Of a stretch of 10,179 nucleotides of DNA, positions 4,579 to 10,179 are shown piece after piece; position 1 is the first letter of the stretch, and each line of letters starts with the position of its first letter. The stretch is taken from positions 1-10,179 of the forward strand of contig QMWA01000050.1 of assembly GCA_003661385.1 (NCBI GenBank). Reading direction: 5' to 3'. This DNA comes from Thermoproteota archaeon. Lineage in GTDB: Archaea; Korarchaeota; Korarchaeia; B14-G2. The notes beneath the pieces are model-generated. The model had not been told where the DNA came from. It worked only from the letters and a program-made list of their open reading frames with translations, and ran no database searches. The position numbers were made by a program, and so were the translations under genes.

Positions 4579-5241
4579 CTAAGACAAGGCCTTCAAAAGA
4601 GCTTCCACAGCATACCTCAAGAGAAGCACCCCCGCAATCGACACCCAACCTAAAATCGACGCCTTAACAACCCCATACAAGTCATCCATCCGCTTATTCA
4701 ACTGCACAAACATCCCCCTCAACTCAGATATAGCCTCAGCAATCTTAAGCTGCCCCCTCTCAACCTCCCTCAACCTACCCTCAACCCCACCAACCCTCTC
4801 CTCCAACCCCCCTATCCTCTCCTCCAACTTCCCCACACTCTCTTCCAGCTTTCCAACTCTCTCCTCTAGCTTCCCCACTCTCTCCTCTAGCTTCCCCACT
4901 CTCTCCTCTAGCTTTCCAACCCTTTCCTCTAGCTTTCCAACTCTCTCTTCCAGCTTCCCTATCCTCTCTTCTAACCCTCCTATTCTCTCCTCTAGGCCTT
5001 CGATCTCGGCTTTCATCCTCCTTTCAAGCTCATTCAAGTCGCTTTTAGTAGCTACCTCATGCAGTATGGGCTTCAAGCCCTCAACTCGAAGCTCAGGTGT
5101 AAGGATCTCCGCTGCTATCTCTGAAGCTATCTCCCTCCTCAGCTTAGGCTTCTCCCTAAGCTCAGATAGAAGCTGCTCCCCAACACTCATATGCCCCAAT
5201 ACTCCAGCAGCTACCCACCTATAAATCTCCCTAAGCTCCAC
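4579..5241 (-). CDS. Long coiled-coil protein with C-terminal membrane anchor
   Basis: This 220-aa protein matches no family I can name with confidence. The GTG at 5241 is the likely start; the next in-frame ATG would remove 17 conserved-looking residues. The N-terminal 65 residues are helical and charged. From about residue 69 to 194 the sequence keeps one heptad register without a break (about 18 heptads); ten of these (83-152) are near-identical LEERVGK-type units. Val or Ile at a and Leu at d with Glu/Arg/Lys elsewhere predict a rod of roughly 19 nm. Residues about 195-217 (SILGWVSIAGVLLL and following) form one hydrophobic segment, so the rod is probably tail-anchored. I infer a structural, spacer or scaffolding role only. 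A CATATG-like box lies about 25 nt upstream of the start. The gene ends 37 bp from the convergent trmG10. Confidence 0.8.
   Translation of the reverse strand: MELREIYRWVAAGVLGHMSVGEQLLSELREKPKLRREIASEIAAEILTPELRVEGLKPILHEVATKSDLNELERRMKAEIEGLEERIGGLEERIGKLEERVGKLEERVGKLEERVGKLEERVGKLEERVGKLEESVGKLEERIGGLEERVGGVEGRLREVERGQLKIAEAISELRGMFVQLNKRMDDLYGVVKASILGWVSIAGVLLLRYAVEALLKALS
4786..4995 (-). repeat. Ten-unit 21-bp tandem repeat (minisatellite) coding for heptads
   Basis: Ten in-frame 21-bp units encode LEE[RS][VI]G[KG]. The plus-strand unit at 4856-4876 is repeated exactly at 4877-4897, and the next copy (4898 on) matches for 15 bases before differing. Outer units are more diverged than inner ones, the pattern expected from recent slippage or unequal recombination at the centre of an older array. 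Confidence 0.92.
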
Positions 5242-6063: not shown

Positions 6064-7328
6064 ATGAAAGCTGCTAAGGCTTTAGCACTAGCCTCCATCA
6101 CTACGAGCGCTCTAGCTTACCTGGTAGCTTCTATCGCCGCTGAAAACTTGGCTTCAGCTTCTCTGATATCCTTCTCAGAGTACATGAAGCTCAGATATGC
6201 CCTACTGCCTGCTCTAGCTATACTAACCATGCTAGCTGCCTGGTTTGCAGCAGATGTTCTGAAGCCAAGCATCCCATATCAGCCTTTAGCCCCACTTCTC
6301 CTCTGCCTCTACCTACTAGCCTTAAGAGAGAAGCTCCTTAGAATCGAGAAGTGCAGTGATGCCTACATATACATCGAGGCTGGTGTAGCCTACATCTCAG
6401 GCACATCACCGCTAGAACTGAACTGGGAGCACCCTCCACTAGCAAAGTACATCATAGGCTTAGCCTCGCTTATAAGCCGCAGCTACTGGGCCTATGCCGC
6501 CCAGGGGCAGCTATAGCCCTGCTGCTCTTCCTAGTGGTCTGCAAGCTCGGCCACAGGCTAACAAGGAACCCAAGGCTGGCTGCTCTCCTGCTTGCAGCAG
6601 ACCCCCTCTACCTTGTATATGCCTCTACTCCAATGCCTGATGTGTATGCTGTATCCCTAGCATGCATAGCCGTGCTGCTAGCTGCAGGAAACAAAATGAG
6701 AGACGCCTTAGCATCAGGTGTAGCCATGGGCTTAGCTTTAGCATCGAAATGGACCATAGCACCAGTAGTGGTGACCATATTGTACCTACAGAGGCACTTG
6801 AAGAAGGCTGTTGTCATGCTAGCTACTATGACCTTAGCGTACACAGCCACCTACTTACCTGCTACTACAAGCATACACCTGATAGCTGCGCATCAGCTTA
6901 AGATGATAGAGTTCATGAGCTCACAGCACCTAGGGATCAGCTGCCTCGACGGCTTCCTGGCTATACTCGGCTTCTACACAGTGAGAATCCCCCCACACGA
7001 GGAACCGCTCCACATGCTCTTTAAAGGCCACACCCTCATACAGCCCCCCACCTCAGCCCCCATAGCGCTCCACCTAATCTCATGGAACCCAGGAAACCTA
7101 GTCCTCTACCCCCTTCTGCCACTAGCTCTACTAGCCCACAGGAACAGAGAGGTTCTAGCATATCTCCTGCCGCAAGCAGCATTCCTGCTCTTCACACCCC
7201 CATACTACACGTGGTATAGGCTAGCTCTAGCTCCTCCTCTAGCCCTAGCGCTCGCAGACCTCCTAGAGAAATACCAGCAGAAGCTAGCTATGGTGTACCT
7301 AATTCAGCTTTTTCTCGCTCTAATATAG
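6064..7328 (+). pseudogene. GT39/PMT-like membrane glycosyltransferase, split by a frameshift
   Basis: Two adjacent frames make one protein of about 421 aa. Frame one (6064-6516, 150 aa) has hydrophobic segments near 5-25, 43-63 and 72-88, then the first exoplasmic loop with D99 and the hallmark NWEHPPLAKY (E122-P125) of dolichyl-phosphate-sugar transferases. It then stops at TAG 6514-6516. The other frame carries on immediately (first ATG/GTG-type start at 6534, but homologous sequence PGAAIALLLFLVV begins near 6500) with DPLYLVYASTPMPD, GLALASKWT and several more membrane spans, ending at 7328. Restoring one base, for example one C in GCCGCCC near 6495-6502, gives YWAYARPGAAIA, which fits the family's conserved Arg. 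The enzyme would move a sugar from a polyprenyl-phosphate donor to protein or glycan outside the membrane. It could be a true pseudogene or a sequencing error; I see no good slippery site. Confidence 0.8.
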
Positions 7329-7631: not shown

Positions 7632-8570
7632 CTAAGCACTAAACCCTATCTCAGCCACCACAGCCTCCACTTCTACTGAGCAGGCATAAGCCTCTGAGAC
7701 CATATAAGCTTCATCGTTAATCACAGCATAGATATAAGCGTGAAATGGCTCAGAAGCCGCTAGACGGTACACAAGCCTATTCACACCCCTATTCGCCAGA
7801 ACCACACGCTGCGTCTGGCTGGAAACAGCTACTAAGCGAATATCCATAGGCCTAGCCCTACACCCCAGCAAAGTAACATTTACCACAGGGCCTCCATTCA
7901 CCCCACATGATGCTAGAAGCCTAGCCCTGATAAAAAAAGCAAACGCATACAGAGACTCGGAGGGCCTAGAGAAAACCACCAGAGAACTGCACTTATCAAG
8001 CGTCTCTACTGCAAAGAACCCGAAACCACCTGGAAGCAAGCACTCCCCCTCTGACACTAAATACTTATCCCACTTAACATCTCCGTAGGTTCCTCTCAGA
8101 AGCTGCACCCCACCAACTGGAAGCAAGTCCACTTTAGATGGAACAAGCACCTCCACAAATGGAGCCTCATACTCCATTAGCAACAGGCACTTATGCCCAT
8201 CTACAGTGTCTGTGATCAGCGCCAGGTCAATGGGCTCAGCTACCCCTGTGCTCAAATTGTATATGCTCAAACCATCTAGCTCCTCGAAAGCAAGGTAAAT
8301 AGAGATGTTATCATGGAAGTCAGGTACAAACCTAACCAAAGCCTCATCAACCCGGATTTCAGCCACACTAGCAGCCCCCTCCCCCCTATTTACGACCGAA
8401 AAAGCGCACCTCTCCAGGTTCAAGATAAACTGTTCTGCATCATATACCCTAGCAGCATCTCTAACATTCAAGATGGTAGCAAAACCCCAGCTAAATGCAA
8501 GCAGGGAAAGCAGCGTAACGACGCCTAAAAGAAGCATCGTAGACGTAATCTCAGCCACACCCTGCTTCAA
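7632..8570 (-). CDS. Pilin-like exported protein with class III signal peptide (A)
   Basis: This 312-aa protein starts MKQG|VAEI followed by an uninterrupted hydrophobic stretch to about residue 34. That is the layout cut by archaeal prepilin peptidase (PibD/EppA) after Gly4, leaving the helix as the filament core. The TTG at 8570 is the only possible start: the frame closes at a TAG (8580-8582) three codons upstream and contains no other start codon. A weak GGGATG Shine-Dalgarno precedes it. The large outer domain of about 270 residues is beta-rich in appearance, with seven cysteines and three N-glycosylation sequons (NIS, NLS, NVT), consistent with a disulfide-bonded surface protein. It is bigger than ordinary major pilins, so a minor or adhesive pilin is a fair guess. 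It is transcribed divergently from three more pilin-like genes. I do not recognise a specific family. Confidence 0.8.
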   Translation of the reverse strand: MKQGVAEITSTMLLLGVVTLLSLLAFSWGFATILNVRDAARVYDAEQFILNLERCAFSVVNRGEGAASVAEIRVDEALVRFVPDFHDNISIYLAFEELDGLSIYNLSTGVAEPIDLALITDTVDGHKCLLLMEYEAPFVEVLVPSKVDLLPVGGVQLLRGTYGDVKWDKYLVSEGECLLPGGFGFFAVETLDKCSSLVVFSRPSESLYAFAFFIRARLLASCGVNGGPVVNVTLLGCRARPMDIRLVAVSSQTQRVVLANRGVNRLVYRLAASEPFHAYIYAVINDEAYMVSEAYACSVEVEAVVAEIGFSA

Positions 8571-8602
8571 CTCGCATCCCTACACCACTGACACCACAAC
8601 AG

Positions 8603-8616
8603 TTATTAAGACTTAA
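8603..8616. promoter_or_regulatory. Shared bidirectional TATA element between divergent pilin genes
   Basis: TTATTAAG (8603-8610) is centred about 27 nt before the ATG at 8634, the position expected for a leaderless plus-strand transcript. Read in the other direction (CTTAATAA) it would start transcription near 8580, about 10 nt before the TTG at 8570, leaving room for the GGGATG leader. Bases 8606-8616 form a perfect inverted repeat, TTAAG-A-CTTAA, which could also be an operator. Confidence 0.5.
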
Positions 8617-8633
8617 CTACATAATAACAACGC

Positions 8634-9116
8634 ATGCAGAAGGGGATATCAATCATACCATACCTACTAGGAGTTATAGCCATAGGAATACTCCTAGTCT
8701 ACACATCCTACAGCTTCTCCAGAGGAATGCTAAGAGGGGAGAAGCTAGAACTCAGCGAACAACAAGCAGAACTCATCGCCACCTACATGTCCCGCTACCT
8801 AGTTAAAGCTGCCATAATAGGAGAAACAATCTCCTCAGATGAAGGAAGAATAATCCTCCCAATAGAGCCTCCTCCAAGCGTGCTAGGTGAAGGCTACTGG
8901 ATCGAAATCATTGTCCAAGACAGCAAACAAGCTGTGAAAGTCTACCTAGACATACACAGAGATGTCTGCTCTGAGCAGACTCTATTCAACCTGCTGGCAG
9001 AAGAAGCAGGAGAGCAGTGGAGATTCCAGCTAGGAGACCTAAAGAAGACAGCAGGCTCCAAGCTCTCCCCAATACTAATCTACGTCGAAGGAGGCTACAT
9101 AGGGTTTGCTGGCTGA
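8634..9116 (+). CDS. Pilin-like exported protein with class III signal peptide (B)
   Basis: This 160-aa protein opens with MQKG|ISII and a hydrophobic helix (PYLLGVIAIGILLVYTSYSF). Prepilin peptidase would cut after Gly4. The remaining roughly 125 residues mix a charged amphipathic helix (ELSEQQAELIATYMSRYL) with beta-rich sequence and a single cysteine, the size and plan of a small pilin or pseudopilin. The start lies in a GCATGC palindrome with no Shine-Dalgarno, and the TATA element at 8603-8610 suggests a leaderless mRNA. It is the first gene of an operon; the next start follows its stop after 4 bp. Its codons favour A and C endings, unlike gene A on the other strand. I know of no named homologue. 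Confidence 0.78.
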   Translation: MQKGISIIPYLLGVIAIGILLVYTSYSFSRGMLRGEKLELSEQQAELIATYMSRYLVKAAIIGETISSDEGRIILPIEPPPSVLGEGYWIEIIVQDSKQAVKVYLDIHRDVCSEQTLFNLLAEEAGEQWRFQLGDLKKTAGSKLSPILIYVEGGYIGFAG

Positions 9117-9120
9117 GACC

Positions 9121-9864
9121 ATGGACAGAAAAGGAGTAGTACACATGGACTTCATATTTGCACTAGGCCTCTTCCTAGCAGCCCTAGTAATATACATCAA
9201 CCTCTCAATCAGAACCCTAGCCCCCACCCCCACAGAAGTCGAAAAGGCAGAGCTAGAAGCCATAGCTGAAGCCATAACAGAGCTCCTATCAGAAACCCCA
9301 GGAAACCCCCCCAACTGGGAAAGCAGCGTCCCCTCCTTAGACAGCAACACCTTCCGCCTCGGCCTAGGAGCCTACGACCCAAGCGAATACGCACACTACC
9401 AGGGGAAATCACCAACCACACTTTCACTAGCCAAGCTCATCCACCTCAACCTAACAGCCTCTAACATAATACATGGCTCCCCATGGCAGTACCTCCCATA
9501 CAGCGAAGCAGAGTTCTACACCCTAGTACCCGCTGAAGCCCTAGACGACCCAGATGCAGATTGGAGAAAGTACATCATAGATGGGAGGATAGTCAACGCC
9601 AAGAGCTCACTAGACCTCACAGCATACGACTTCCTCATCAAAGTCGAGCCCATAGACCCCACCACCATAACATTCAAAGGGCTACCCATAGTTTATGGCG
9701 GCCAGCTTCCCACAGACAGGCTAATAGCATGCATCCACAGGATAATGCTACTCAGAGTAGACATATACGATGGAGAAGCACAGATAGACCTTGGAATAGA
9801 GCAGCACATGGTCAACAAGCTGATTCCCGTGAAAGTCACAGTCTATGTATGGGGGAGAAGATGA
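9121..9864 (+). CDS. Pilin-like exported protein with class III signal peptide (C)
   Basis: I chose the ATG at 9121 (247 aa) over the upstream TTG at 9106, because it puts the signal MDRKG|VVHMDF at the true N-terminus: two basic residues, Gly5 as cleavage site, then the hydrophobic run FIFALGLFLAALVIYINL. The start lies 4 bp after the stop of gene B. The outer region of about 215 residues has Asp/Pro-rich and Tyr-rich segments, one cysteine and a surface-type sequon (NLT). I see no enzyme motif. The last codons overlap the start of the next gene by 4 bp (ATGA at 9861), so B, C and D form one operon. By analogy with other archaeal filament loci it may be a minor pilin; that is inference from the N-terminus and position only. 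Confidence 0.78.
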   Translation: MDRKGVVHMDFIFALGLFLAALVIYINLSIRTLAPTPTEVEKAELEAIAEAITELLSETPGNPPNWESSVPSLDSNTFRLGLGAYDPSEYAHYQGKSPTTLSLAKLIHLNLTASNIIHGSPWQYLPYSEAEFYTLVPAEALDDPDADWRKYIIDGRIVNAKSSLDLTAYDFLIKVEPIDPTTITFKGLPIVYGGQLPTDRLIACIHRIMLLRVDIYDGEAQIDLGIEQHMVNKLIPVKVTVYVWGRR

Positions 9865-10179
9865 TAGCACCAAAATCAAAGAGGAGAAGAGGTTACCTAT
9901 ACACCATTGAAGCTGTTGTAGCAGCTATTCTTCTATTCGTTATCCTAGCATTCACAATAAGGCAAAAGCTCCAGTTTCCAATAATAGAAGACCGCCCAGA
10001 ACCACAGCTGCTCCTAGACATACTCCTAGAGCTAGACGAGACAGGAGCACTAGACTACCAGGGGCCCATAGCAGAGTACTTTGCAGGCAAAGGAAGCCAG
10101 CTGAAAGCACAATCACAGCTCTACAAGCTCATAAGAAGCAGGCTCCCCCACACCATGGGCTTCAACATAACAATAGAAG
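9861..10179 (+). CDS. Pilin-like exported protein with class III signal peptide (D), 3' end missing
   Basis: The ATG at 9861 overlaps the stop of gene C and has a strong Shine-Dalgarno, GGGGGAG at 9851-9857. The visible 106 residues begin MIAPKSKRRRG|YLYTIEA followed by VVAAILLFVILAF. Four basic residues before the Gly, then an aromatic residue and a Glu near +6 before the hydrophobic helix, resemble the classic prepilin pattern more closely than the other three proteins do. After the helix comes an acidic, Leu-rich segment (LLLDILLELDETG) and the sequon NIT close to the window edge. The frame is open to the last base, so the length is unknown. The operon very likely continues; an assembly ATPase or membrane platform gene beyond the edge would be informative. 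Confidence 0.8.
   Translation, partial: MIAPKSKRRRGYLYTIEAVVAAILLFVILAFTIRQKLQFPIIEDRPEPQLLLDILLELDETGALDYQGPIAEYFAGKGSQLKAQSQLYKLIRSRLPHTMGFNITIE

Follow-up and report, generated by a model that had tools for sequence, protein, structure and literature searches.

Four neighbouring genes at one end of a Korarchaeial contig encode dissimilar proteins with pilin-like N-termini, which raises the question of what kind of surface structure they belong to. The window analysed here is the entire contig (C50, 10,179 bp) from a 1.74-Mb genome assembled into 206 contigs, which is the sole member of its family in our genome sample. A preliminary description had proposed that the four genes may represent an undescribed surface system. 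We found that g1 to g4 (Table 1) match one-to-one a pilin set that is conserved beside type IV pilus (T4P) ATPase and TadC genes across archaea, and they very probably encode pilin-like subunits of an archaeal type IV pilus, here in a lineage of the class Korarchaeia. Such a pilus, of the broad euryarchaeal (PilB4-like) kind, usually has five of these subunits, and g1 to g4 would be four of them.

Table 1. Pilin-like genes at the right end of the window. A slash marks the putative cleavage site; class assignments are predicted.
Feature	Position	Strand	Start	Length	N-terminus	Assignment
Gene 1 (g1)	7632..8570	-	TTG	312 aa	MKQG/VAEITSTMLLLGVV	Putative T1-type minor pilin
Intergenic, divergent, g1-g2	8571..8633			63 bp (from sequence)
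Gene 2 (g2)	8634..9116	+		160 aa	MQKG/ISIIPYLLGVIAIGIL	Putative T2-type (DUF7266-like class) pilin
Gene 3 (g3)	9121..9864	+	ATG	247 aa	MDRKG/VVHMDFIFALGLFL	Putative T3-type (DUF7287-like) pilin
Gene 4 (g4)	9861..10179	+	ATG	3' end off contig	MIAPKSKRRRG/YLYTIEAVVAAILLF	Putative T4-type (DUF7288-like) pilin

The tight packing described previously for three of the genes is that of g2 to g4, which are joined by a 4-bp gap (g2-g3) and a 4-bp overlap (g3/g4); g1 lies on the minus strand and is divergent from g2, an arrangement left unstated at the time. Thus, a single transcript is possible for g2-g4 only, and the promoters of both g1 and g2 presumably must sit in the short interval between them. 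The outer-domain lengths given earlier were about right for g1-g3, while g4 comprises 106 codons up to the contig end. No DNA overlap with the right end of C50, which stops at position 10179, was found among the other contigs of the genome. At the left end, positions 1-210 overlap contig C59 (202 bp, 91% identity), so C59 probably adjoins the window there, and strain variation is suggested to have broken the assembly at these positions. At 1278-2425, the gene of a ThiS-like ubiquitin-fold protein with a GG end overlaps that of a TtuA-like tRNA thiolation enzyme. The window also encodes a coiled-coil protein (4579-5241) with tandem GKLEERV repeats and a hydrophobic segment at its C-terminus; an archaellum FlaC identity for it was dropped because it matches 142 families, apparently a coiled-coil artefact. 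A glycosyltransferase-like gene (6064-7328; PMT_2, weak, E = 8e-4) is apparently split over two frames near 6510, which appears to reflect a frameshift, an assembly error or a pseudogene.

All four proteins begin as the preliminary description had it, with a class III signal in which a short basic leader running to K/R(Q)-G/A is followed by a hydrophobic helix; residue -2 of g1 is Gln, a weaker prepilin peptidase site. A leader scan of the same genome (463 ORFs, 428 kb) returned six ORFs with K/R(Q)-G and a hydrophobic stretch, namely three window genes and three scattered elsewhere in the genome, with g4 masked by a longer overlapping TTG ORF. The background of ~0.65% per ORF corresponds to ~2e-9 per position for four in a row, and the four class III-like N-termini are therefore not due to chance.

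None of the four genes scored above the cut-offs of Pfam and NCBIfam, and searches of these collections linked the window proteins to no family of archaellins, UpsA or pilins. Below threshold, Pfam related g3 to DUF7287 (weak, E = 0.083) and g4 to DUF7288 (weak, E = 0.019), the latter family being present in the Haloferax volcanii control genome. Searching the ORFs of relatives with g1-g4 (phmmer) gave no match, and a PDB sequence search gave none for g1 and g3 and chance matches only for g2; a single-sequence search of 61 genomes with g3 recovered one weak outside match, adjoining a TadC gene. Structure prediction agreed with the pilin helix postulated earlier, as the AF2 models of g1 and g3 both open with a confidently predicted helix and are beta-rich thereafter, towards the C-terminus (in g1, the helix spans residues 2-62, begins at a pLDDT of about 90 and is followed by strands). 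The heads were predicted with low confidence (mean pLDDT 50 and 42 in the two models), and the models therefore support the general pilin plan only.

Examining the genes that surround relatives of TadC in other archaea, we found several unrelated genomes in which a secretion ATPase and TadC are accompanied by five pilin-like genes, and these were taken to define five classes, T1-T5. The order T1-T2-ATPase-TadC-TadC-T3-T4-T5 is shared by L068, L079 and L073; L075 has the window's order, T2-T3-T4-T5, with the ATPase just upstream, and L084 and L085 contain all five classes in other orders beside an ATPase (classes in L075, L084 and L085 assigned partly by eye). The T2 protein of L068 matches DUF7266 (E = 7e-6). 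In profile comparisons, each window gene scored highest on its own class and none better on another: g1 on T1 (hhalign, E = 8.8e-5, residues 3-80), g2 on T2 (E = 1.2e-4, residues 1-97), g3 on T3 (E = 4.1e-7, with a lesser T2 match at 1e-4) and g4 on T4 (E = 1.2e-6). As controls, 45 proteins from this genome that carry a hydrophobic segment at the N-terminus reached at best 0.034 on T1-T4 and 0.0091 on any profile. Because three loci had been classed partly by eye, the comparison was repeated with order-only classes (O1 and so on), built from gene order alone in three loci. The pairs g1-O1 (0.0018), g3-O3 (1e-6) and g4-O4 (3.5e-6) remained the best, the latter two highly significant, and g2 was not separated, scoring better on O1 (0.0029) than on O2 (0.032). 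For g1 and g2, the class similarity is modest. For g3 and g4, acidic residues near the site agree with the assignment: g3 has Asp at +5 and g4 Glu at +6, and D/E at +5 occurs in 7/7 T3 proteins and E at +6 in 7/7 T4 proteins (g3 and g4 counted, respectively). A motif LLSETPGNPPNW...LGLG is also present in g3. The earlier view of different, co-encoded pilin-like proteins with class III signals was borne out.

The profile of g3 and its relatives detected this family in 85 of 247 archaeal genomes, with no second copy found in the source genome. By our count of 22 independent loci outside the profile (L132 and L141, related to profile members, were left out), the T3-class gene is directly followed by a T4-class gene in 16 and directly preceded by TadC in 14, while seven have T5 after T4. 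The HMM cut-off was permissive, at E = 0.01 on a small set, and there is some cross-matching between classes at ~1e-3, so that gene order carries part of the weight. K/R-G/A sites are mostly kept in the T1-T5 proteins of other archaea. Homologues in other archaea mostly retain both cleavage site and neighbourhood.

Components of a pilus machine are encoded elsewhere in the genome. Contig C78 carries a prepilin peptidase (Peptidase_A24, Arc_PepC_II), a TadC gene and a pilin-like ORF, and C54 carries a T2SSE ATPase gene with a MinD-like gene beside it, the ATPase being 48-49% identical to those of the T1-T5 loci L079 and L068. An ATPase and a double TadC of the Korarchaeial type lie at the start of C44, and C59 contains another ATPase. 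Makarova et al. (PMC4858521) note that pilin sets and ATPase/TadC modules are exchanged. The cognate ATPase/TadC of the window pilins may be the Korarchaeial-type pair on C44 or one made up of the C54 and C78 genes.

In Korarchaeial relatives, a pilin cluster parallel to this one lies with an ATPase and a double TadC (L051-L058, including L062 of Methanodesulfokora washburnensis). The TadC relatives of the source genome fall in Korarchaeia, among them the korarchaeote M. washburnensis. This cluster resembles the window in that its groups B, C and E match T1, T3 and T2, respectively, and its ATPase/TadC type is the same as that of C44 in the source genome; unlike the window, its gene order differs, group D has no more than a weak match to T4/T5 and most members are without the Gly site. 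An assignment from the Korarchaeial groups A-E alone was dropped, as the matches were too weak. In L051, L052, L054, L055, L056 and L058, the pilin counterparts mostly start at the hydrophobic helix and do not have the Gly site, though they lie beside ATPase/TadC. Separately, L053 (L053:2-4573; QMVU01000049.1, Guaymas Korarchaeial MAG) encodes a pilus ATPase of 1523 aa with intein domains (Intein_splicing, E = 2e-49; LAGLIDADG_3), the intein apparently being inserted near the P-loop GKS.

The window proteins could also be accessory pilin-like components of the machine (cf. archaellum ArlF/ArlG), retained in the membrane outside the fibre. Korarchaeial counterparts in groups B, C, D and E, which mostly start near the helix without a Gly site, look as uncleaved accessory pilins would, whereas the four window genes and other archaea's T1-T5 mostly preserve K/R-G/A sites, and we consider this explanation unlikely. 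Still less probable is a separate surface assembly, such as an adhesin complex or one that binds sugars or is bindosome-like, which would depend on the prepilin peptidase but form no pilus. C50, which ends in g4, holds no ATPase or TadC gene and has the glycosyltransferase-like gene nearby, as such an assembly might, but in many archaea the same four classes adjoin ATPase and TadC genes, and Pfam and NCBIfam revealed no sugar-binding domain in the window proteins. Similarity to named families below cut-offs would suit unrelated membrane proteins with class III-like N-termini by chance, a coincidence that is barely credible given that such a start recurs in only 3 other ORFs among about 460, that the matches are class-specific while the controls are clean, and that gene order is conserved across loci.

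Assignment to a type IV pilus is supported at the level of sequence by the signals, the one-to-one classes, the ATPase/TadC linkage in other genomes and the peptidase, ATPases and TadC of the source genome, and g1-g4 are best interpreted as minor pilins. In such a pilus, prepilins would enter the membrane via the N-terminal helix, a PibD/FlaK-type prepilin peptidase would cut the short basic leader after Gly, and a VirB11-family ATPase together with the TadC platform would pull the mature helices into the filament. The filament would be built largely from a PilA-like major pilin whose gene lies elsewhere, and the dissimilar beta-rich T1-T5 heads would act as minor subunits in initiating or capping this filament or in binding targets; that they are minor and not major components, and that they function in adhesion, is what we infer. 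The T5 gene would be expected just beyond the contig end.

Bacteria possess minor-pilin tip complexes, GspH-I-J-K and FimU-PilVWXE, which resemble the set described here by analogy, with four to five dissimilar pilins encoded with the pilus machine and an acidic residue near +5. T1-T5 might tentatively be seen as their counterpart, a pan-archaeal minor-pilin complex (GspH-K-like or FimU-PilVWXE-like) that primes or caps the pilus, with the window as its Korarchaeial example, although we regard this as doubtful. The window proteins may form the hetero-oligomeric tip complex raised in the preliminary description. In place of the claimed undescribed system, the window offers a fresh example of a known surface filament. 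The fast-evolving and mostly unannotated DUF7266, DUF7287 and DUF7288 classes are tied to one conserved T4P neighbourhood found in many archaea, Korarchaeia among them, a link that aids their annotation and makes an archaeal minor-pilin role easier to test.

The preliminary description could match the genes to none of the archaellum, Ups, Aap or Bas loci; this stands insofar as no archaellin or UpsA family match was found, but a known T4P set exists outside those four. Pilin sets like the one seen here feature in the T4P models of Makarova et al. 2016 (PMC4858521), and the closest are the euryarchaeal pilin set of clade 2 and the PilB4 locus of Haloferax volcanii, including the signature minor pilin arCOG02911. 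The related but different paralogue PilB1-C1 of Haloferax has a locus that matters for adhesion (PMC6491452). Compared with the clade 2/PilB4 set, the window differs in its Korarchaeial genome, in the location of ATPase and TadC on other contigs and in its divergent g1. Common to that set and the T1-T5 set are several dissimilar pilins, linkage to a VirB11-type ATPase and TadC, and a single long minor pilin of all-beta type, which here is probably g1/T1.
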